From Bacteroidales bacterium (lineage in GTDB: Bacteria > Bacteroidota > Bacteroidia > Bacteroidales > VadinHA17): a stretch of DNA of 18,227 nt. Under the pieces are notes generated by a model. It was given only the letters and a program-made list of their open reading frames with translations, did no database searches and was not told the origin of the DNA. Location of the stretch: the NCBI GenBank assembly GCA_025455535.1, contig JALOMM010000002.1:1-18227 (forward strand), read 5' to 3'. Made by a program: the position numbers and the translations under genes. The first letter of the stretch is position 1; every line of letters starts with the position of its first letter. This document shows, one piece after another, positions 6,917-17,214 of this stretch.

Positions 6917-8116
6917 ATGAAGAGAGAAGAATTTGATGCAAGGGTTGAACTGCTTTTTAAGGAGCATAAACAGCTTATTGACCGTCAGAATATCAAGCAG
7001 TCAGGTGGAAACGGAATATATGACAGGTATCTTTATCCTGTCCTGACCCGTGACCACACTCCGCTGTTCTGGAGGTATGACCTTGATTACAACACCAACC
7101 CCCACCTGATGACACGGCTGGGGATCAACACAACCTTCAACGCAGGGGCAATTAAGCTAAACGGCAAATACTGTCTGGCGGTCAGGACGGAGGGATTCGA
7201 TGTCAAGTCATTCTTCGCTGTGGCAGAGAGCCCTAACGGAATTGATCAGTGGAGGTTTCGTGATCATCCTATTGTGATGCCGGTGACTGGTGATCCTGAA
7301 ATGAATGTTTATGACATCAGGCTGACACAGCATGAGGATGGATGGATCTATGGACTGTTCTGTGCAGAGCGGAAAGACCTCAGCAAGCCTGATGACTCGT
7401 CTGCCGCTCTGGCAAGCTGCGGCATTGCACGAACCAGGGACCTTGACAGGTGGGAAAGGCTTGATGACCTTGTCTCAACAGCTGCGCAGCAGAGGAACTG
7501 TGTCCTTCATCCCGAATTCGTAAAAGGAAGGTACATGATCTATACGAGACCCCAATCCGGATTCATCGAGACCGGAGACAGCGGCATCAGTGCAGGTTTC
7601 TGCGACAGCATGGAGCATGCCGTCCTTGGCGAGGAGATACTTGTTGATGCAAGAAAATACCATACCGTCAGAGAGGTCAAGAACGGACAGGGACCTTCCC
7701 CTCTGAAGACCGAACACGGATGGATACACCTGGCGCATGGTGTGAGGCGGACAGCGGCAGGACTCAGGTACACCCTTTATCTCTTTCTTACGGCTCTGGA
7801 TGAGCCCTGGAGAGTGATCAGAAGACCTTCAGGACATTTCATCGAACCCCTTGATGAAGAGCGTGTCGGTGATGTGTCAAATGTGGTCTTCAGTAACGGC
7901 TGGATAGCCGATGATGATGGCACAGTATTTGTTTACTATGCTTCTTCAGATACAAGAATGCACGTGGCTGCCACAACAATGGAAAAACTGATTGATTATG
8001 TACTGAATACTCCCGAGGATGCGGGACGTACTCAACTGTGTGCTGCACAGAGGGATCAGATGATTGAAAAAAATCTGAAAATTCTTTCCCTGAAGTATCC
8101 GAATATCAAATTTTGA
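6917..8116 (+). CDS. GH130 family glycoside phosphorylase, probably 4-O-beta-D-mannosyl-D-glucose phosphorylase
   Basis: A 399-residue protein with the five-bladed propeller sequence signature of GH130. GGNGIYDRYLYPVLTRDHTP, RLGINTTFNAGAI, AESPNGI, GDPEMNVYDIRL, FCAERKD, PEFVKGRYMIYTRPQSGFIE and YYASSDTRMHVA match what I recall of the GH130 subfamily 1 enzymes such as Bacteroides fragilis mannosylglucose phosphorylase. The Asp in VYDIRL (residue 133) corresponds to the family's catalytic proton donor. The reaction would be phosphorolysis of 4-O-beta-mannosyl-glucose to mannose 1-phosphate and glucose in the cytoplasm, the last step of beta-mannan use. It lacks a signal peptide, as expected. 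The usual partners (mannobiose 2-epimerase, mannanase, sugar transporter) are absent here, so the gene stands alone. Exact disaccharide specificity is inferred. Confidence 0.9.
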   Translation: MKREEFDARVELLFKEHKQLIDRQNIKQSGGNGIYDRYLYPVLTRDHTPLFWRYDLDYNTNPHLMTRLGINTTFNAGAIKLNGKYCLAVRTEGFDVKSFFAVAESPNGIDQWRFRDHPIVMPVTGDPEMNVYDIRLTQHEDGWIYGLFCAERKDLSKPDDSSAALASCGIARTRDLDRWERLDDLVSTAAQQRNCVLHPEFVKGRYMIYTRPQSGFIETGDSGISAGFCDSMEHAVLGEEILVDARKYHTVREVKNGQGPSPLKTEHGWIHLAHGVRRTAAGLRYTLYLFLTALDEPWRVIRRPSGHFIEPLDEERVGDVSNVVFSNGWIADDDGTVFVYYASSDTRMHVAATTMEKLIDYVLNTPEDAGRTQLCAAQRDQMIEKNLKILSLKYPNIKF

Positions 8117-8371: not shown

Positions 8372-9616
8372 ATGAACGCTAACAGAAAAGAGGCTACGGT
8401 TGCTCATGTTGAGAACCGCCTCATGGGCTGCTCCTCGGAAGAGGAGCCTGGCGCGGGTACCATGATCTTCCCGCAGATCGGATCCCTCGATCAATTAGTT
8501 AGCAACCGGAGTTCGGAATTCATACGCCGCTACTTCCCCCTAACCAACACTGATTCATGGAATGACTGGAGATGGCAGTTACGTAACTCCTTTACTTCAG
8601 CCGAGGCACTGTCTCGAGTCATGAGACTGACTGATGACGAGACACATGCGCTCAACAGTCTGAAGAACAGGTTACCGCTCAGGATAACCCCCTACTATCT
8701 CTCGCTTATTTACGATGCGGCACCGGAGAGTGCCTTGCGCCGGACAATGATACCTTCCGTCAGTGAACTGACAATCACTGATGCCGAGAAGGCCGACCCG
8801 CTCGATGAGATGGGAAGCAGTCCTGTGCCTGGCATTGTTCACCGTTATCCTGACAGGGCACTGTTTACCGTGACCCAGTTCTGCTCATCCTACTGCAGGT
8901 ATTGTACCAGGTCGCACTCTGTCGGCAAGCTGGGGCATCTTACCAGGGGTGAATGGGACAGAGCGTTCAGGTACCTCGCCGAACATACCGAAGTCCGTGA
9001 CGTGATTATCAGCGGCGGTGACCCGCTGACGATGAATGACGACAAGCTCGAATACCTGCTCTCGAGTCTGAGGGCCATCAAACATATTGAAATTCTCAGG
9101 ATAGGCACGAAAGTGCCGGTGGTGCTGCCGCAGCGCATAACACCCAAGCTGGTGGCTATGCTCCGCAAATATCACCCCCTCTTCATGAGTCTCCATTTCA
9201 CACATCCCGATGAGATAACACCTGAGACCGCAAAGGCCTGCGAGATGCTCGCCGATGGCGGTATGCCGCTTGGCAGCCAGACGGTCCTTCTCAGCGGCAT
9301 CAATGATGATCCGGCAGTAATGAAGAGCCTAATGCATAACCTGCTGAAGATCAGGGTCAGACCTTATTATCTCTACCAGTGTGATCTTATACCGGGGTCA
9401 AGTCATTTCAGGACCTCTATTGAGAAGGGTATTGAGATTATTGAGAACCTGAGAGGACATACAAGCGGCTATGCCGTACCACAGTTTGTCGTTGACGCCC
9501 CCGGCGGAGGCGGCAAGATACCTATACTTCCGAATTATGTGGTCGAAAGCGGACCTGAGAAATGGGTGCTCAGAAACTATAAAAGGAAGCAATACACATA
9601 CCCCAATAAAAAGTAA
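8372..9616 (+). CDS. kamA: KamA-family radical SAM/PLP aminomutase, lysine 2,3-aminomutase-like
   Basis: A 414-residue protein aligned by eye with clostridial lysine 2,3-aminomutase, which turns L-lysine into L-beta-lysine. The radical SAM motif is C171-SSY-C175-RY-C178. The PLP-lysine motif is VVDAPGGGGK with K382. Two Asp known to hold the lysine side-chain amino group in the Clostridium enzyme (Asp293 and Asp330) are present as D338 (YQCDL) and D375 (VVDAPG), at the same 37-residue spacing. Glutamate mutases of this family replace these, so lysine is the likely substrate. RPYYLYQCDLIPGSSHFRT and RGHTSGYAVPQFVVDAP are near-family consensus. The protein stops where the clostridial enzyme continues into its Cys-rich zinc tail, so that tail is missing. 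The first 30 residues look unconserved; Met31 is an alternative start. It is the first gene of a tight cluster with two ATP-grasp ligases and a GNAT. Confidence 0.92.
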   Translation: MNANRKEATVAHVENRLMGCSSEEEPGAGTMIFPQIGSLDQLVSNRSSEFIRRYFPLTNTDSWNDWRWQLRNSFTSAEALSRVMRLTDDETHALNSLKNRLPLRITPYYLSLIYDAAPESALRRTMIPSVSELTITDAEKADPLDEMGSSPVPGIVHRYPDRALFTVTQFCSSYCRYCTRSHSVGKLGHLTRGEWDRAFRYLAEHTEVRDVIISGGDPLTMNDDKLEYLLSSLRAIKHIEILRIGTKVPVVLPQRITPKLVAMLRKYHPLFMSLHFTHPDEITPETAKACEMLADGGMPLGSQTVLLSGINDDPAVMKSLMHNLLKIRVRPYYLYQCDLIPGSSHFRTSIEKGIEIIENLRGHTSGYAVPQFVVDAPGGGGKIPILPNYVVESGPEKWVLRNYKRKQYTYPNKK

Positions 9617-9623
9617 CTGAGGG

Positions 9624-10598
9624 ATGACAATCGGGCTTACGTATGACCTTCGTTCGTGGTACCTCGAACGCGGTTATACTATGGAGGAAACGGCAGAGTT
9701 TGACAAGGAAGATACGGTAGCAGCCCTCGAAGATGTGCTGGCAAGGCTCGGATACCGGACTGAACGGATCGGCAACATCTTTGAGCTGGTTGATAAACTC
9801 GCTGCCGGTCGCAGATGGGACATGGTTTTCAATATCACAGAAGGGCTGTACGGTGACGGACGTGAGTCTGTCGTCCCTGCGTTGCTTGACCAGTACAGGA
9901 TACCTTATGTTTTCAGCGGACCGGTTGTCATGGGCATCTCCCTTAATAAATACTATGCCAGGCTTGTGGCTGAGGCGGCAGGAGTGCCCGTTAGCCCGGG
10001 TATCCTGGTCTCATCGGCTGACGATATTCCACTGGCAGCGTCCCTTACATATCCCCTCTTCGTTAAGCCTGTTGCAGAAGGTACCGGGAAAGGCATAACT
10101 GAGAGAAGCATCGTCAGAGATACCCTTTCTCTCAAAGACCTGGCAATTGAGCTCCTTCAGAGGTTCAGCCAGCCTGTCCTGGTCGAGGAGTATCTTCCCG
10201 GGAGGGAGTTCACCGTCGGTGTTACTGGCAGTGGAGCAGAGGCAAGGGTTGTAGGCGGAATGGAGGTGATATGCAAGGACAACCTGCCCTATTCAGTTGA
10301 GGTAAAGGAGAATTACCAGGATATAGTGCAGTACAGGACCATTGATGAAAGCTACAGGGATGAATGCAACGCTGTTGCACTGGCGGCCTGGCGTGCACTG
10401 AGCGCCGTTGACGCCGGCCGTGTAGACCTGAGGGCTGACAGGCACGGGAAGATATGTTTCATTGAAGCCAACCCGCTGGCAGGTCTCAACCCGGTGCACT
10501 CCGACCTTCCCATCCTTTCGCGAATGAGCGGTGTTGAATATGATACACTTCTTGAGATGATAATAACCTCTGCCAAAAGACGTTACGGACTTAAATAA
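9624..10598 (+). CDS. D-Ala-D-Ala ligase-like ATP-grasp enzyme 1
   Basis: A 324-residue cytoplasmic ATP-grasp protein starting 7 bp after the aminomutase stop. The N-terminal domain resembles that of Ddl enzymes (NITEGLYGDGRESVVPALLD, then YRIPYVFSGP). The ATP-grasp domain has the nucleotide-binding lysine in FVKPVAEGTGKGI (about residue 148), VEEYLPGREFTVGV (187-200), and the Mg-binding residues D268 (RVDLR) and E281/N283 (FIEANPLAGLNP). Family members join a carboxylate, activated as acyl-phosphate, to an amine. The N-terminal D-Ala-binding Glu motif of true Ddl is not seen and the end of the active site differs from EVNTLPGMT. A role in peptidoglycan is therefore less likely than a role in a specialised amide-forming pathway with the neighbouring aminomutase. 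Substrate is inferred from context only. Confidence 0.88.
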   Translation: MTIGLTYDLRSWYLERGYTMEETAEFDKEDTVAALEDVLARLGYRTERIGNIFELVDKLAAGRRWDMVFNITEGLYGDGRESVVPALLDQYRIPYVFSGPVVMGISLNKYYARLVAEAAGVPVSPGILVSSADDIPLAASLTYPLFVKPVAEGTGKGITERSIVRDTLSLKDLAIELLQRFSQPVLVEEYLPGREFTVGVTGSGAEARVVGGMEVICKDNLPYSVEVKENYQDIVQYRTIDESYRDECNAVALAAWRALSAVDAGRVDLRADRHGKICFIEANPLAGLNPVHSDLPILSRMSGVEYDTLLEMIITSAKRRYGLK

Positions 10599-10600
10599 TA

Positions 10601-11563
10601 ATGAAAGAGTGTCTTATAATCTATAACGAGCCCTCAGCTGACGCCCTGCCTGATGAGCTTGATGTGCTCGACCAGGTAAATTTTATCGGAGAAACCCTGC
10701 AGACACTGGGGTACGATGTATCGCGCCGGGGTATAACTGATGATTTCTTTCATGAAATATCTGAAATTGCAGGCAGCAGGTATGAGTTTGTATTTAATCT
10801 TGTTGAATCAGTGGGAAAGAAGGCGGAGATCCTTTATTTTATCCCGGCATTGCTCAACATGCATCATATTCCCTATACCGGATGTCCGCTTGAGGCAACC
10901 TTTATTACCGGCAGCAAGGTGCTGGCCCGCCAGATAATGAAAGCCGGAGGGATACCAGTTGCGGGCGGATACAAGGTTTCAGAGGCTGACAGGCTTACGC
11001 CGGGAAGGAAATACATTCTCAAGCCCGTGTGGGAAGACGGTTCGCTGGGAATTACTGAGGAATCTGTATTTACCTTTGACGGTACCGTGCCCGAAATAGT
11101 CAGGGAAAAGAATGACAGGCACTGGTTTATTGAGGATTTCATTGACGGGAGAGAGTTTAACGTGAGTGTCATGTCAGGGCCAGGCGGACCGGAGGTCCTC
11201 CCCCCTGCCGAGATGCTTTTTCACGATTACCCCGGAGACATTCCCCGTATTGTCAGTTATAAGGCGAAATGGGTTGAGGGGACCTTTCAGTATGAGAACA
11301 GCAAGCGTAACTTCCCGGGAGACCTCAGTGAGAGACTGATGAACAATATCAATGAAGCAGTGCTGGGGTGCTGGAAAACTTTCGGACTGAAGGGATACGC
11401 CCGTGTCGACATGCGGGTGGATGAAAAAGATAATGTATTTGTCCTGGAAGCCAACGCCAACCCCTGCATCTCGCCTGACAGCGGTTTTATCTCAGCAGGA
11501 TTGCATGCAGGTTATACCCACGCGGAGATTATCAGCCGCATCATCAATGACCTTAATAAATAA
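10601..11563 (+). CDS. D-Ala-D-Ala ligase-like ATP-grasp enzyme 2
   Basis: A 320-residue protein starting two bases after the previous stop. It has the same ATP-grasp architecture but is clearly divergent from its neighbour. The ATP lysine lies in ILKPVWEDGSLGI (about residue 141). WFIEDFIDGREFNVSV occupies 175-190, YARVDMRVDEKDNVFVLEANANP carries D270 and the Mg ligands E283 and N285. The acceptor side reads NPCISPDSGF instead of NPLAGLNP, so the two ligases probably use different substrates or act at successive steps. The N-terminal part contains VFNLVESVGKKAEILYFIPALL and IPYTGCP, as in Ddl-like proteins. I infer a second amide bond formation in the same pathway. Whether the pair forms a heterodimer cannot be told. 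Confidence 0.88.
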   Translation: MKECLIIYNEPSADALPDELDVLDQVNFIGETLQTLGYDVSRRGITDDFFHEISEIAGSRYEFVFNLVESVGKKAEILYFIPALLNMHHIPYTGCPLEATFITGSKVLARQIMKAGGIPVAGGYKVSEADRLTPGRKYILKPVWEDGSLGITEESVFTFDGTVPEIVREKNDRHWFIEDFIDGREFNVSVMSGPGGPEVLPPAEMLFHDYPGDIPRIVSYKAKWVEGTFQYENSKRNFPGDLSERLMNNINEAVLGCWKTFGLKGYARVDMRVDEKDNVFVLEANANPCISPDSGFISAGLHAGYTHAEIISRIINDLNK

Positions 11564-11568
11564 TTCCG

Positions 11569-12048
11569 ATGGCCGAAATTTCATTCGATATTACAGCTGA
11601 TGACCGTCCCGTCCTTGAAGCAATCCTAAAATCTTCAGGCTATTTCTATGATTTTGAGGTTGATGTAGCTCTCTCACTGGCAGATGAGACTATAGAAAAA
11701 GGGCAGGAAAAAAGCGGCTACTACTGGATTCGTCTCATTGAAGATGGTAAAGTCATTGGTTTTGCCAATTTCGGACCCAATCCGTCATCGGTGCATTCCT
11801 ACGATCTTTACTGGATTGCAATAATGGAGGAGCACAGGCAGAAACGGTACGGATCACTGATCCTTAAGAATGCTGAAGAGAGGATCAGGGCTCTCGGCGG
11901 GAAGATAGTATGGATAGAGACATCAGGCCGCCCTCTCTATGAACCCACAAGAGGGTTCTACCTGAGGAACGGCTATGAGCTGGAGGCCACATTGCGTGAT
12001 TTTTATGGCCCTGCTGATGCAAAACTGGTATACAGGAAAGAGTTATGA
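11569..12048 (+). CDS. GNAT-family N-acetyltransferase
   Basis: A 159-residue single-domain GNAT. The order of elements is a mixed N-terminal helix region, strand YYWIRLIEDGKVIGFANFGP, DLYWIAIMEEHRQKRYGSLIL (strand 4 and the acetyl-CoA pyrophosphate loop), VWIETSGRPLYEPTRGFYLRNGYE, and ATLRDFYGPADAKLVYRK. The loop is RQKRYG rather than R/QxxGxG/A, but Gly95 is kept. The C-terminal RDFYGPADAKLVY is typical of a GNAT subgroup whose members I recall often lie beside Ddl-like ligases. The ATG at 11569 follows the ligase stop by five bases. It is too short for AblB, the beta-lysine acetyltransferase of about 270 residues. It may cap an amino group of the cluster's product, which is inference. Confidence 0.88.
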   Translation: MAEISFDITADDRPVLEAILKSSGYFYDFEVDVALSLADETIEKGQEKSGYYWIRLIEDGKVIGFANFGPNPSSVHSYDLYWIAIMEEHRQKRYGSLILKNAEERIRALGGKIVWIETSGRPLYEPTRGFYLRNGYELEATLRDFYGPADAKLVYRKEL

Positions 12049-12081: not shown

Positions 12082-12750
12082 ATGGATGTAAAGATTGAAG
12101 CGAGCTGGAAGGATAAGCTCTCTGCAGAGTTTGAGAAGGAGTATTTTGTGTCGCTGACAAAGTTTGTAAGGGAGGAATACAAGACACGCCAGGTCTTTCC
12201 GCCGGCAAACAAGATATTCAATGCCTTCGATCTTTGTCCTTTTGACAGTGTCAAGGCTGTAATAATTGGCCAGGACCCGTATCATAATACCGGCCAGGCT
12301 CACGGACTTTGTTTTTCCGTGACCGATGGCACAGAGTTTCCTCCCAGCCTGGTCAATATCTTCAAAGAGCTTAACCGTGACCTTGGCATTCCGGTACCTC
12401 TTTCAGGAAGCCTTGAGCGCTGGGCAAGGCAGGGAGTGCTGCTTCTGAATGCCATCCTTACGGTCAGGGCACACCAGGCTCTGTCACATCAGAACAAAGG
12501 CTGGGAAAAATTCACTGACGCTGCAATTAATGCCCTTAACCGTGACAGGGACGGGATAGTCTTCATGCTCTGGGGCAACTACGCTCTTCAGAAGGGAGCT
12601 GCGATAGACACATCGCGCCACCTGGTGCTCAAGACGGTCCATCCCTCTCCCCTGTCGGCCAGCAGAGGCTTCTTCGGGTGTTCGCACTTCAGCATGTGCA
12701 ATGAATGGCTCAGTTCAAAAGGGATGACGCCGATATCCTGGCAGTCATGA
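12082..12750 (+). CDS. ung: Uracil-DNA glycosylase, family 1
   Basis: A full-length 222-residue UNG. It removes uracil from DNA to start base excision repair. The water-activating motif GQDPYH is at 63-68 (D65, H68), followed by the uracil-pocket GLCFSV. NAILTVRAHQALSH and the minor-groove motif HPSPLSA (187-193), then FFGCSHFSMCN, complete the signature. The start at 12082 is 33 bp after the GNAT stop, so it may be co-transcribed with the aminomutase cluster, although no functional link is apparent. It converges on the downstream PLP enzyme gene and shares a palindromic stop region with it. Confidence 0.97.
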   Translation: MDVKIEASWKDKLSAEFEKEYFVSLTKFVREEYKTRQVFPPANKIFNAFDLCPFDSVKAVIIGQDPYHNTGQAHGLCFSVTDGTEFPPSLVNIFKELNRDLGIPVPLSGSLERWARQGVLLLNAILTVRAHQALSHQNKGWEKFTDAAINALNRDRDGIVFMLWGNYALQKGAAIDTSRHLVLKTVHPSPLSASRGFFGCSHFSMCNEWLSSKGMTPISWQS

Positions 12751-12754
12751 CTGC
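12741..12754. repeat. 14-bp perfect palindrome spanning two overlapping convergent stop codons
   Basis: GCAGTCATGACTGC is its own reverse complement. The TGA of ung (12748-12750) and the TGA of the convergent PLP enzyme gene (12747-12745) lie in its centre, so both genes end in CAG TCA TGA (Gln-Ser-stop). It has no T run on either side, so it is not an obvious bidirectional terminator. Confidence 0.7.
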
Positions 12755-13914
12755 AGTCCCCTCCTGATAACTTTCTCCACCTCCTCCCATGGCTCAAAGC
12801 CCAGAGACATCCTTATCATCCCCGGCTCAGGATATTTGGCCCCCCATACTGCCTCAACGGGCATCAGTATCGTATGAGAATCGCCCAGGGTTGGGATAAG
12901 CCTTATTTCAGGATAAACGGCAGCGATGAACCTGTCGCGTCTCGACCTCTTCCCTTCAGCATTGTCGCCCTTCAGGTCGAAGGTGACCATTGCGCCATAC
13001 CCTTTACCTCCTGTCAGTGCCCGGGCTGCCTCATGAGTGGGGTGTGTCGCAAGCCCCGGATAAAGCACGCTGCCTACTTCATCTGAAGAGCTCAGCAATG
13101 CAGCCACACCGGAAGCGTTATGGCACTGCCGCGTGAAGCGCAGGTCGAATGAGGCCAGTTGTGTCTGTAACCTGTAGGCGTCGTCAGGTGAGAGCATATG
13201 ACCTACATACTTACGGTATTCTATCGCGCTCTTCATCAGCGTTGTGTCGTTGCCGCATAAGACTCCGGCAGTGAGGTTGCCGTGACCGGAGAGATATTTT
13301 GTTGCGCTGTGAATGACAATATCGGCACCTTCATCCAGTGGCTTCCACAGTAGAGGTGTGGCAAAGGTGTTGTCAACAAGAACGCGTGCTCCGTAGTGCC
13401 TCGCAAGGGCTATAATCCTCCTCCCTTCAGCCACCATCAGCAGCGGGTTGGAGATAGTCTCGAAGTACAGAATCTCCGGACGCGTATCGTCCAGGGTCTT
13501 CTCGAGAAGCTCATAGTCATAGCTGTTGCCTGACGGCCTGAAGAAGTCAATCTGCAGGCCCCTTCTCTTTTCAAGAACACTGCTTATGTAAGAGAGTGTG
13601 CCTCCGTATATCTCAGAGAAGAAAAGCCATCTGCTCTCTTTGCCTGCCTCCTGGAAGATTGACAAGGCTATATCTATGGCCGACATCCCTGACTGGGCAA
13701 GAAGAGCCCAGGCCGAACCCTCCGTTGCCATTACAGCCTCCTCGGCGGCAACCACCGTCGGGTTGCGGTAACGGGAGTAAATATATAGCTCAGGCTCTCT
13801 CTCGTGATCAATCTCGGCGGCAAAGGCATCAGATGTTGTGCCGGCTGACGGGAGTTCGAAGCCGGCGTCACGATATACCGGCGTCCTGGCGCTGTTTATC
13901 TCTTTCTTTTTCAT
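12745..13914 (-). CDS. Cys/Met-metabolism PLP-dependent enzyme (cystathionine gamma-synthase/lyase-like)
   Basis: About 389 residues from the ATG at 13914; a longer frame continues upstream but is only the shadow of the preceding gene. It is a fold-type I PLP enzyme of the trans-sulfuration family. YSRYRNPTVVAAEEAVM corresponds to the usual YSRxGNPT phosphate-binding region. DNTFATPLL supplies the Asp (about 181) that contacts the PLP ring nitrogen. SATKYLSGHGNLTAGVL holds the Schiff-base Lys (about 206). At the place where methionine gamma-lyase has its Cys (YGCT) this protein has YGGT, so it is not a classical methionine gamma-lyase. Cystathionine gamma-synthase, gamma-lyase, or O-acetylhomoserine sulfhydrylase activity are all possible. 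It overlaps the end of the ferredoxin/anchor gene by 47 bp and is the last gene of the molybdoenzyme operon, suggesting a sulfur-linked role. Confidence 0.9.
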   Translation of the reverse strand: MKKKEINSARTPVYRDAGFELPSAGTTSDAFAAEIDHEREPELYIYSRYRNPTVVAAEEAVMATEGSAWALLAQSGMSAIDIALSIFQEAGKESRWLFFSEIYGGTLSYISSVLEKRRGLQIDFFRPSGNSYDYELLEKTLDDTRPEILYFETISNPLLMVAEGRRIIALARHYGARVLVDNTFATPLLWKPLDEGADIVIHSATKYLSGHGNLTAGVLCGNDTTLMKSAIEYRKYVGHMLSPDDAYRLQTQLASFDLRFTRQCHNASGVAALLSSSDEVGSVLYPGLATHPTHEAARALTGGKGYGAMVTFDLKGDNAEGKRSRRDRFIAAVYPEIRLIPTLGDSHTILMPVEAVWGAKYPEPGMIRMSLGFEPWEEVEKVIRRGLQS

Positions 13915-15202
13915 ATGTGTCGTTGAAATTTTCAAGTATAGATTCCCTGATATTAATCGGGGAAAAGTCATCGTAAAAGAGAACCCTGTCGGCAGCAACA
14001 CCGGTAAAAAAGACAATGGCAGCGGCAAGGCTGGTAGCTTCGCTTCCGGGGTACAACAGCATGAAGGCGGCGGGAAGGGAGAGCGCACGGTAGTAATAAA
14101 GAAAACGGATCAGCGGTTCTTTTTCTGATGACCTGTATCTCATGACCACTGACAGTGCTGCCAGCAATGAGAAGAGAAGAAAAAGTGTATTCGGTGTAAT
14201 AAACCATGATGTAACAAAAACAGCTGAGAAGAATGACTGTCCGGTATGGAGTTTAAGCCTGTAAGACCGGTCTGAGGCAAAATAGACCATGTCTACCGAG
14301 ATAAGGGTCAGCAATGAGACTGATGCCAAAAGCACTGTGTTAATTATCCCCGGAAGGAACCAGTTGACGGCAGCCATCGCTGACAATGCCGTCACTAACA
14401 GTATTTCACGGCTCAGGGGTGATGAAATAACGTTCAGTGGTGCCCGCCATGCTCTCAGGGGAAGGCCCAGGTGGGCAAAAGAGATCAGTACTGCGCCGGC
14501 CATAAGTATGGCCGGCAGTCCTGCCCCCGGGACATCTGCCTTTAGTGCTGAAGCTAACAGCAATGATGAAGCTGAAATAACCATTAAAGAAAAAAGTATG
14601 AGGCTCCATTCCTTCATAACCCTGTTTTCAGCGACCGGTGTGTCAGGAATCACCTCATCGTCTTCAGCCGGTATTATCACCGGGCTGTTGGCATCGGGTA
14701 CCCCTTTCAGGATGAAGGAAGGCCCTATCCCTGTCTCAGGGAACCATGCCACTCCAACAGGGGGAAACTCATCCTTTGTGGCCATTCTGAGTGCTCCGGT
14801 AGGACATGCTGATGTACACGCTGTCTCAACACCTTCAGAGACTCTCCCGAAGCAATACTGACACTTCTCGATATAACCTTTTGCCGGGTTGATCCTGGGA
14901 GCGTCATAAGGGCATCTCCATGTGCAGTAGCGACAACCCATGCATTTATCCTTATCGTACAGGATAGTTCCGGAGATGTCTTTTGAATAGGCATTTACAG
15001 GACATCCTTCGAGGCACTCCGGTTTCTCGCAGTGGTTGCATGCCAGGGAGAGGCTGTACACGCTGAAGGGAGGCAGCGTCTCATCGTTCCACCCGTATAG
15101 AGACCTCGTACCAGGCTGAAGCCCGTTCTCAAGGGTGCAGGCAGCGTTGCAGGCGTTGCACCGCACACAGAGTGCCGCATCAAATTCGAATCCTCTTCTC
15201 AT
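13868..15202 (-). CDS. Fused four-cluster ferredoxin and DmsC-like membrane anchor subunit
   Basis: A 444-residue fusion. Residues 1-140 form a DmsB-type electron-transfer subunit with sixteen Cys arranged for four 4Fe-4S clusters: C12/15/18/22, C55/58/63/67, C87/90/93/97, and C114/117/129/133. A linker rich in Pro, Glu and Asp follows (about 150-200), then a hydrophobic DmsC/NrfD-like domain of about eight membrane segments (about 205-425). In DMSO-reductase-type enzymes these are separate subunits; here one polypeptide should carry electrons between the quinone pool and the molybdenum subunit encoded just upstream. There is no signal peptide, so the clusters are probably on the cytoplasmic side. 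The ATG overlaps the stop of the molybdoenzyme gene as ATGA. Confidence 0.92.
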   Translation of the reverse strand: MRRGFEFDAALCVRCNACNAACTLENGLQPGTRSLYGWNDETLPPFSVYSLSLACNHCEKPECLEGCPVNAYSKDISGTILYDKDKCMGCRYCTWRCPYDAPRINPAKGYIEKCQYCFGRVSEGVETACTSACPTGALRMATKDEFPPVGVAWFPETGIGPSFILKGVPDANSPVIIPAEDDEVIPDTPVAENRVMKEWSLILFSLMVISASSLLLASALKADVPGAGLPAILMAGAVLISFAHLGLPLRAWRAPLNVISSPLSREILLVTALSAMAAVNWFLPGIINTVLLASVSLLTLISVDMVYFASDRSYRLKLHTGQSFFSAVFVTSWFITPNTLFLLFSLLAALSVVMRYRSSEKEPLIRFLYYYRALSLPAAFMLLYPGSEATSLAAAIVFFTGVAADRVLFYDDFSPINIRESILENFNDTYEKERDKQRQDAGIS

Positions 15203-17214
15203 GCTGATTCTTTTTCTGCTCCGACCCTTGTATTATGAAAGGCTGCGCCATAACCCATATCTGTTTCCGCCGGGGTTATCAGGTCATTGACCCCTCCCCC
15301 TTCGTCAAGCCATATGCCGTTGGGAAATACCAAACTTCCCTTCTTCGTCCTTGCCGTCACTCTCACCTTGCCTGTTACTTCGCCGCTGGAGTTATATACT
15401 CTGATCCTGTCTCCACTCCTGATACCCAGCCTGCGCGCGTCTGACGGCGACATTTCCCATGCCGGCGGTTCGACCACACCTCTGATAACCTCAAGGTTGC
15501 CGAACTGCGAGTGTATCCGTGACGCAATGTTGGGTGTCATCAGCCTGAAAGGGAGGTCCGTTTCACCGAAGTCATCAGGAGGCGTATATGAAGGTAATGG
15601 ATTCACTCCCCAAAGCTTCTCAGCAGTCTCTGAAAAAAGCTCGATCATTCCGGAAGGGGTGGTGAAGTCCCTTTCACGGAAAGCGGTCTGCTCAGCCTGG
15701 TCTGGTATTACAGGTGCCCTGAAGAGCTCTTCGCGGGAAAAACCCCCGGTCCCGCTGATGCGGTTAAGAAGCCATTCATCATACGCCGCGGGAGAGATTA
15801 TCGCAGCTTCCATGTTCATTCTGCGGGCAAGCTCAAAATATATCTCACTCTCAGGCTTTACCTCACCCGGAGGATCAATTACAGCAGGCTTATACTGAAC
15901 GTAAGGATGCCAGTATGAGCTGACTACATCTGCCTGTTCGAAAAGCCCCTTCGCAGGAAGTATAATGTCGGCCATTGCTGCTGTATCAGTAATAAACTGA
16001 TCGACAACGACTTTAAATGGAACAGAGTGCAAGGCTCTCTTCACCTCCTTGCTTCCGGGAAGCTGTGTAACCGGGTTGCCTCTTTCAATCCATGCGACCT
16101 CTATCCCAGGCTCCCTCAGGGAGAAGAAATCAGTGCCGAACTTCGCCATGGATATCTCTCTTCTGAAGGGTTTATCGAGCTCATGATCTGGATAATAGCA
16201 CAACGGTTCTTTTACTGCGTCGAAAATATATCCCTGTAGGTTGGCATAATTGAATCCGCATCCTTTCCGTCCAATCATACCAGTAATTACCGGTATCGAC
16301 AGGATGGAACGGATGGTCTGTCCGCCGTTTGTATATCTCTGCAGTCCGAAACCGGCCACAATCGTTACAGCCCTGCTCTGCCCTATCATCAGGGCCAGCT
16401 GTTCTATATTTTCGGCGGGGATGCCGGTTATCTTAGCTGCCTGCTCCGGTGAAATCTCAAGTGAGGCAGCAAATTTTTCAAATCCGGACACATATTTGTC
16501 AATGAATTCATGATCGGCAAGACCCTTATCGATAATCAGTTTCGCAACCGCCAGTGCAAGTGCCGCATCGGTTCCGGGATAAGGCCTTACAAGGATGTCA
16601 GCCTTGTCAGCTGTCGGCGTTCTTCTCGGGTCGATGACCACCAGCTTCGCCCCGTTCTTTTTCGCAATGTCTACGTGGATCATCTCCTGGACATTTGTCT
16701 CGGCAGGATTCTTTCCCCACATTATTATAAGCTGTGCATTTGCCAGGTCCCAGGGAACATTATGCCTTACATCCCCGAGGGTAAGCCTGACAGCCTCAAG
16801 CCCGGCAGGCCAGCACAGGTTGCCGTATGTCGTGGTGGCTCCCCCGAAAGTCTTCCAGAAGAGAGAGGCGATGTCATTACTCAATCCGGAGTGCCCGCTC
16901 CCCTTATAGAAGAGAACTGAATGAGGCCCGTGTTTCTCCCTTGCCTCAAGGAGCTTTTGGGAGATAGTCGAGAAAGCCTCCTCCCAGGATATCCGGATAA
17001 AGGCACCCTTTTCGGTTCGTTTATGAGGATAAAGGATTCTTGACGGTGAGAACTCCCGTTCGAGGTAGGAAAGGCCTTTTATACAGGGACCCTCCGGAGT
17101 GGCCAGATTGTCACGGTATGGCAATATCCGCTTAACCTTTCCATCTTCGGTAAATACCCTGAATGAACAGGTACTGTAGCAGTTGCGCGGACATGCGGTA
17201 ATAAATTCCTTCAT
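15199..17214 (-). CDS. Molybdopterin-dependent oxidoreductase, DMSO reductase superfamily catalytic subunit
   Basis: A 671-residue catalytic subunit holding bis-MGD and one 4Fe-4S cluster. The N-terminal cluster motif is C8-x3-C12-x3-C16 with C44 in EGPCIKG. FYKGSGHSG and IIMWGKNPAETNV are cofactor-binding segments. In YGNLCWPAG the Cys134 occupies about the place of the molybdenum ligand, which would make this a Cys-ligated enzyme like NapA or PsrA/PhsA rather than a Ser-ligated DmsA; this is a prediction. The C-terminal guanine-dinucleotide domain is visible from about 555 (PFRLMTPNIASRIHSQFGN) to ARRLGIRSGDRIRVYN. There is no Tat leader, so it probably faces the cytoplasm. Substrate is unknown; sulfur compounds such as polysulfide, thiosulfate or sulfoxides are plausible because a Cys/Met PLP enzyme is co-encoded. 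Confidence 0.93.
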   Translation of the reverse strand: MKEFITACPRNCYSTCSFRVFTEDGKVKRILPYRDNLATPEGPCIKGLSYLEREFSPSRILYPHKRTEKGAFIRISWEEAFSTISQKLLEAREKHGPHSVLFYKGSGHSGLSNDIASLFWKTFGGATTTYGNLCWPAGLEAVRLTLGDVRHNVPWDLANAQLIIMWGKNPAETNVQEMIHVDIAKKNGAKLVVIDPRRTPTADKADILVRPYPGTDAALALAVAKLIIDKGLADHEFIDKYVSGFEKFAASLEISPEQAAKITGIPAENIEQLALMIGQSRAVTIVAGFGLQRYTNGGQTIRSILSIPVITGMIGRKGCGFNYANLQGYIFDAVKEPLCYYPDHELDKPFRREISMAKFGTDFFSLREPGIEVAWIERGNPVTQLPGSKEVKRALHSVPFKVVVDQFITDTAAMADIILPAKGLFEQADVVSSYWHPYVQYKPAVIDPPGEVKPESEIYFELARRMNMEAAIISPAAYDEWLLNRISGTGGFSREELFRAPVIPDQAEQTAFRERDFTTPSGMIELFSETAEKLWGVNPLPSYTPPDDFGETDLPFRLMTPNIASRIHSQFGNLEVIRGVVEPPAWEMSPSDARRLGIRSGDRIRVYNSSGEVTGKVRVTARTKKGSLVFPNGIWLDEGGGVNDLITPAETDMGYGAAFHNTRVGAEKESA

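Follow-up and report, generated by a model that had tools for sequence, protein, structure and literature searches.

Aminomutase, paired Ddl-like ligases and acetyltransferase in a Bacteroidales genome: a candidate pathway to a beta-lysine amide

Cassettes combining a ligase with an acetyltransferase for the synthesis of small molecules derived from amino acids are known. The N-acetylglutaminylglutamine amide (NAGGN) osmolyte operon encodes a fusion of a GNAT acetyltransferase with an ATP-grasp ligase, together with an asparagine-synthase-like amidotransferase and an M42 hydrolase. In the AblA/AblB pathway to N-epsilon-acetyl-beta-lysine, a KamA-type aminomutase works with an acetyltransferase (PMC3543383 and PMC9337991). 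The locus described here lies in a stretch of 18,227 nucleotides (hereafter, the window) that forms positions 1 to 18,227 of contig JALOMM010000002.1 of a Bacteroidales bacterium (assembly GCA_025455535.1; 252 contigs, 61.88% complete). It occupies positions 8372-12048 and consists of four genes on the plus strand, separated by 7, 2 and 5 bp, for a lysine 2,3-aminomutase-type enzyme (KamA), two Ddl-like ATP-grasp ligases (Lig1 and Lig2) and a GNAT. We give an even chance to the reading that the four genes form one dedicated pathway, in which beta-lysine would be made, joined to a partner by ATP-driven amide formation and capped with an acetyl group, reversibly in some of the genomes.

The cassette resembles the AblA/AblB pathway in pairing a KamA-type aminomutase with an acetyltransferase and in the AblA-like active-site residues of its KamA. 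However, KamA here stays under the AblA cut-off and shares 47% identity with a true AblA from the genus, the GNAT of 159 aa is not AblB, and the locus adds two ligases and, in part of the relatives, a GNAT-deacetylase fusion and a small membrane protein, DMT_6. With the NAGGN operon it shares the logic of ATP-grasp ligation, GNAT capping and hydrolysis, but here the ligases and the GNAT are separate genes and the beta-amino acid would come from KamA; neither an asparagine-synthase-like amidotransferase nor an M42 hydrolase was recognised by eye among the 25 most recurrent neighbour families. Lig1 and Lig2 have the fold and the ATP-grasp residues of the Ddl enzymes (DdlA/DdlB and Van types), yet differ from them in falling below the listed curated cut-offs, in forming separate clades, in a replaced loop and in their tandem position in an aminomutase cassette. 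The deacetylase of the fusion is, among solved structures, nearest to the bacterial acetylpolyamine amidohydrolases (ApaH), from which the fusion differs by its N-terminal GNAT and its place within a beta-lysine/ligase cassette. No description of a KamA with tandem Ddl-like ligases was found in the open-licence literature, a search that did not cover subscription papers and preprints, and the consulted passages of PMC11532494 mention neither such a fusion nor the cassette. As far as could be found, the combination with an optional deacetylase and a membrane protein is undescribed.

The distribution of the cassette was studied in a scan of named genomes with the Lig1 alignment, which gave at least 540 confirmed relatives; the best-scoring 80 were kept as named loci, a choice biased towards the kind of locus seen in the window. 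The order KamA-Lig1-Lig2-GNAT is found in 63 of these 80 loci, under record labels of Bacteroidota, Deltaproteobacteria, Acidobacteria, KSB1, Neomarinimicrobiota, Aminicenantes and Proteobacteria; such labels come from the submitters, and metagenome bins may be mislabelled. These counts refer to order and not to strict adjacency (an open reading frame intervenes in L075 and L084, for example). The cassette genes found share one strand in all 80 loci. The four-gene architecture without additions accounts for 50 loci; the fusion is inserted behind KamA in 11 (KamA-fusion-Lig1-Lig2-GNAT) and ahead of the GNAT in two (KamA-Lig1-Lig2-fusion-GNAT). Shorter forms, some of them truncated at contig ends, are KamA-Lig1-Lig2 (10 loci), fusion-Lig1-Lig2 (two), KamA-fusion-Lig1-Lig2 (one), KamA-Lig1 (one), Lig1-Lig2-fusion (one) and Lig1 alone (two). 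Within the genus, Lig1, Lig2 and the GNAT are adjacent in 18 of 18 loci and KamA lies directly upstream in 16; in the other two (L006 and L018), the sequence begins inside Lig1. Since adjacency is kept in the same-genus loci, the grouping is not a matter of chance. A preliminary description of the window, made from its letters alone, had given the same order, spacing and families, with which the exact reading-frame coordinates and Pfam agree (Table 1), and the gene order on which it relied is thus conserved in relatives, across phylum labels.

Table 1. Genes of the cassette and its immediate flanks in the window
Feature	Coordinates	Strand	Remarks
KamA, lysine 2,3-aminomutase-type radical SAM enzyme, 414 aa	8372..9616	+	Radical_SAM, LAM_C and TIGR00238 over cut-off
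Lig1, Ddl-like ATP-grasp ligase, 324 aa	9624..10598	+	Dala_Dala_lig_C over cut-off
Lig2, second Ddl-like ATP-grasp ligase, 320 aa	10601..11563	+	Dala_Dala_lig_C over cut-off
GNAT acetyltransferase, 159 aa	11569..12048	+	Acetyltransf_1 over cut-off
Glyco_hydro_130 gene (Pfam)	6917-8116		255 bp upstream of kamA
Uracil-DNA glycosylase gene	12082-12750		33 bp downstream of the GNAT gene

KamA exceeds the cut-off of the subfamily model TIGR00238 and that of no equivalog model. It reaches 477.9 bits on the AblA model TIGR03820 (cut-off 525.4), 428.7 of 650 on the glutamate model, 382.3 of 600 on the arginine model and 248.1 of 369.3 on the EpmB model TIGR03821. The two other cassette KamAs that were scored, those of L070 and L090, also fall below the AblA cut-off (432.7 and 496.4), while the AblA of genome G006 scores 776.7. 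Residues 58-410 align with the lysine 2,3-aminomutase (LAM) structure 2a5h, which we take to be the enzyme of Clostridium subterminale. In LAM, D293 and D330 presumably bind the epsilon-amine of lysine, and K337 the pyridoxal phosphate (PLP). The matching D338, D375 and K382 of KamA are present in 75 of 76 rows, the remaining row being gapped there. As the residues for lysine and PLP are kept, lysine is the expected substrate, in line with the lysine type assigned in the preliminary description, and KamA is, by its scores, a subfamily apart from AblA.

The N-terminal extension of the cassette KamAs (window 8372-8482) carries a glutamate, E25, kept in 68 of 71 rows; in most of 13 rows shown, the next residue is a proline.

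Lig1 is under the cut-off of all of the 25 best NCBIfam models out of 42 (best 129.2 of 243), and Lig2 under that of all of the 25 best out of 29 (best 106.9 of 243). The Ddl loop NTxPGMT-xSxxP is replaced by NPLAGLxPxxSDLP in Lig1 and by NANPCxSPDSGF in Lig2. The AlphaFold (AF2) models, with mean pLDDT values of 92.9 for Lig1 and 88.7 for Lig2, come nearest to solved Ddl structures, with TM-scores of 0.73-0.83 in the ten top rows; the best PDB folds are all Ddl for Lig1 and Ddl and Van-type ligases for Lig2. Residues K148, E188, D268, E281 and N283 of Lig1, which we take to be the ATP-grasp site, are present in 81 of 81 rows, and the putative ATP-grasp residues of Lig2 are also kept in nearly all rows. 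A tree of 47 chosen rows separates four groups, each on one side of a branch: Lig1, Lig2, housekeeping Ddl and a third paralogue. Support is 100/96 for the Lig1 clade and for the Lig2 clade; long branches meet between Lig1 and Ddl, and the branching order of the groups is open. The housekeeping Ddl of the same genome is encoded on a separate contig (C168) and passes its equivalog cut-off (346.8 of 310). By these sequence criteria, neither Lig1 nor Lig2 is the housekeeping D-Ala-D-Ala ligase, and the preliminary description withstands this check. The sequence sources often name the cassette ligases D-alanine-D-alanine ligase. A Lig1 homologue that shares 67% identity with the one of L074 is listed under Desulfonatronovibrio hydrogenovorans.

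The third Ddl-like paralogue, grouped with Lig2, is convergent to true ablAB genes at L116:9078-12389 (G006) and L117:8180-11888 (G020). It was dropped as a functional clue, since it runs on the opposite strand from ablAB and lies among other genes in G007 and G010.

The nearest solved relative of the GNAT is 2r7h (E 1e-29), labelled as a putative D-alanine N-acetyltransferase. Against NCBIfam, the GNAT of the window gave no match to AblB (TIGR03827); rimI alone was matched, below cut-off. With the KamA score, this bears out the contrast with AblA/AblB drawn in the preliminary description. AblB was found nowhere in the genome of the window at its stated completeness, and in 2 of 22 same-genus genomes outside the cassette. 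Those two genomes, G006 and G020, carry true AblA and AblB besides the cassette, from which it follows that the cassette is not simply their N-epsilon-acetyl-beta-lysine route.

The fusion gene found in part of the relatives encodes about 585 aa, with an N-terminal GNAT region near the cut-off and a strong Hist_deacetyl domain (PF00850; 245-261 bits in three copies). In the deacetylase domain, the His-His, D-x-H, D and Y positions, which we take to be catalytic, are conserved. The solved structures nearest to the L070 copy, 9gkz and 6phr, are both named acetylpolyamine amidohydrolase. The consulted passages of PMC11532494 report bacterial polyamine deacetylases only in cluster 4 of that study. 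Of the 80 named loci, 17 have the fusion inside the cassette, among them L068 from Ancylomarina sp. 16SWW S1-10-2. The fusion was matched at E <=1e-93 in 19 distinct genomes out of 55 chosen cassette genomes (19 genomes with G handles and 36 of the 80 loci, including at least one duplicate pair, G010 and G060); by coordinates it is part of the cassette in four of the 19 (G026, G027, G071 and G092), and in 15 no adjoining cassette gene is visible.

Linkage of the fusion to the cassette was assessed in a sample of 60 relatives, in which a Lig2 match of at least 40% identity was taken as an orthologue. Such orthologues occur in 25 relatives (a Lig2 match at E 1e-5 in 40, a figure that includes Ddl-like paralogues), and three more (G001, G002 and G004) have cassette fragments at contig ends, consisting of KamA only for G001 and G004, which brings the carriers to 28. 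The fusion is present anywhere in the genome in 12 of the 28 carriers and in none of the 32 other relatives (Fisher p 2e-5), or in 10/25 against 0/32 without the three fragment-only relatives (p 8e-5). The 12 include one split copy (G003) and two partial ones (G014 and G019), and a 36% match to the deacetylase only in G047, itself a carrier, was left uncounted. In the class of G092, the fusion occurs in 6/20 Lig1 carriers, with only the deacetylase part in G355, and in 0/35 others (p 1.3e-3); after removal of G092, the centre of that sample, chosen for having both, the counts are 5/19 and 0/35 (p 4e-3). We take the functional link of the fusion to the cassette as real, with the fusion being optional. 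Because the fusion, which the preliminary description had no means of seeing, carries a deacetylase, the acetyl cap may be reversible in some genomes. The fusion as an essential part of the system was considered and dropped, given that 16 of the 28 carriers do without it.

At G003:C17:16430-18149, the fusion appears as two adjacent pieces, a GNAT part and a deacetylase part, which may reflect gene splitting or faulty assembly. Near ablAB in G006 lies a gene (L116:13186-14742) whose product of about 510 aa has a carbon-nitrogen hydrolase domain; a counterpart recognised by eye (L123:11193-12713) is situated near the fusion in G078.

DMT_6, a membrane protein of about 115 aa and a putative DMT superfamily member, matches PF04342 (DUF486) with 140.7 bits. 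It is encoded in 17 of the 80 named loci, right behind the last cassette gene in 15 and between Lig2 and GNAT in two, L096 (Deltaproteobacteria by title) and L107 (Syntrophaceae by title). In six of the loci where Lig2 has no GNAT next to it, DMT_6 takes that position, and in G086 it adjoins the fusion. The preliminary description had found no dedicated exporter adjacent to the cassette, which is right for the window itself and wrong for its relatives: DMT_6 is directly 3′ of the GNAT in 13 of 18 same-genus loci. Transport by DMT_6 is a guess based on how the family is named.

The proposed pathway may proceed as follows. KamA, judging by its kept active-site residues, would convert L-lysine to beta-lysine. 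One or both of Lig1 and Lig2, by the chemistry of their family, would turn a carboxylate into an acyl phosphate and couple this to an amine, so that beta-lysine would be linked to amino-acid-like partners by one or two amide bonds at the expense of ATP. The GNAT would place an acetyl group on a free amine, either in the precursor or in the product; where the fusion is present, it could both add and remove the acetyl group and render the cap reversible, and where DMT_6 is present, it could move the product or precursor across the membrane. The pathway would yield a small beta-lysine amide in neutralised form, most likely a metabolite of the compatible-solute or polyamine-like kind. The role of a compatible solute is plausible, although the isolate names are mixed and no riboswitch was found upstream. 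A wider version, to which we give about one chance in three at best, holds that this is an undescribed, phylum-crossing pathway in which two dedicated non-Ddl ATP-grasp ligases build an acetyl-capped beta-lysine pseudo-peptide, with a cap that the acetyltransferase-deacetylase fusion switches on and off, moved by DMT_6 and serving as a reversible neutral/cationic solute or polyamine substitute. The interpretation of the preliminary description is thereby partly supported: the gene order, the residues and the non-Ddl nature of the ligases agree with it, and the acetyl-capped beta-lysine pseudo-peptide stays a proposal read from sequence. If the proposal is true, environmental bacteria with several phylum labels share a cassette for a metabolite of which we found no description, the ligases often named D-alanine-D-alanine ligase in databases are mis-named, the Ddl fold has new substrates and the GNAT-deacetylase fusion acquires a defined role.

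Several observations weigh against this picture. The fusion is not in the window and was not found in the window's own, incomplete genome; the cassette-bearing relatives lacking it include the well-completed G007, G018 and G020. The Fisher tests ignore shared ancestry: 10 of the 12 fusion carriers among the relatives belong to one genus, and G359 in the second sample is a near copy of G092. At the threshold used, DMT_6 was found neither in the window nor in 63 of the 80 loci. At least six loci whose sequence continues past Lig2 (L038, L042, L046, L052, L060 and L061) have no GNAT next to it, and therefore acetylation is not always encoded there. Lig1 stands alone in two loci that are uncut there (L078 and L082). 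The pairwise divergence of the four proteins is moderately concordant (Spearman 0.47-0.74, 64 rows). Finally, no Rfam element reached the gathering score in the window, in eight loci or in 16 stretches of up to 2.2 kb around the kamA start of other genomes (located in 14 of them, not in L165 and L172), which gives no hint of osmotic control. The one match below threshold upstream of kamA in the window, to a snoRNA family (E 0.89), was taken for chance.

This last result also bears on an alternative that we regard as rather unlikely, a different route to an osmolyte like N-epsilon-acetyl-beta-lysine, in which KamA stands in for AblA and the GNAT for AblB, with ligases that only extend or amidate the product. 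An aminomutase with an acetyltransferase is the established AblAB logic (PMC3543383; PMC9337991), and the deacetylase of the fusion fits the removal of an amine-linked acetyl group. However, G006 and G020 have true ablAB alongside the cassette, the GNAT gave no match to AblB, and two ligases kept with KamA would be needless. Isolate names are mixed, Old_saline suggesting salt and fen_984 and LacPavin not. In contrast to the ablA case of PMC9337991, no riboswitch was found upstream of the cassette kamA in the Rfam scans.

A second alternative, improbable to a similar degree, is that Lig1 and Lig2 act as one enzyme, either a heterodimer or a catalytic subunit with a supporting partner, and make a single bond, for example in a beta-lysyl or acetyl-beta-lysyl dipeptide. 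Both ligases are present in 77 of the 80 named loci, with L100 cut by a contig end, and known Ddl enzymes are dimers. Nevertheless, each ligase keeps its own ATP-grasp residues and a different loop in nearly all rows, as expected of two active enzymes, and the solitary Lig1 of L078 and L082 does not fit an obligate pair.

It is very unlikely that the ligases attach beta-lysine to peptidoglycan or some other cell polymer instead of producing a free small molecule. Ddl-fold enzymes do supply peptidoglycan dipeptides, and ATP-grasp D-Asp ligases build cross-bridges; the groups named in the host labels, however, are usually Gram-negative, no Mur or cell-wall gene was recognised by eye among the 25 most recurrent neighbour families (not all of them named by a model), and the deacetylase linked to the cassette is of small-polyamine type. 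Least credible of all is that KamA serves lysine fermentation, of which it is the first step, or the beta-lysylation of EF-P, EpmB being a KamA relative, with unrelated neighbours: the order is kept across phylum labels, the EpmB cut-off is missed (248.1 of 369.3), and the fermentation protein KamD (PF09043) was found in 0 of 22 same-genus genomes, a weak point, as the control genome was silent too.

The proposed beta-lysine amide cassette shows a patchy distribution. Among 247 class-wide genomes drawn evenly from a larger group, Lig1 was found at E 1e-50 in the window's own genome only and the fusion at E 1e-60 in none; this sample is a weak control. A PADLOC search gave no match to a defence system, and a tblastn search with Lig1 against a plasmid collection gave none at E 1e-30.

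The recurrent neighbours of the cassette are uracil-DNA glycosylase (23/80 named loci), a PLP enzyme of Cys/Met metabolism (22/80), an EamA-type permease (15/80) and a MATE-type transporter (6/80). The glycosylase, the PLP enzyme and the EamA permease were considered as partners and read as local synteny; all of their loci fall within L032-L060, records with titles of the Bacteroidales/Bacteroidetes type. In the window, the minus strand at 12745-17214 encodes a molybdopterin oxidoreductase and a 4Fe-4S dicluster subunit next to a Cys/Met-metabolism PLP enzyme, and between 12 and 22 of the 80 named loci have relatives of these near the cassette.

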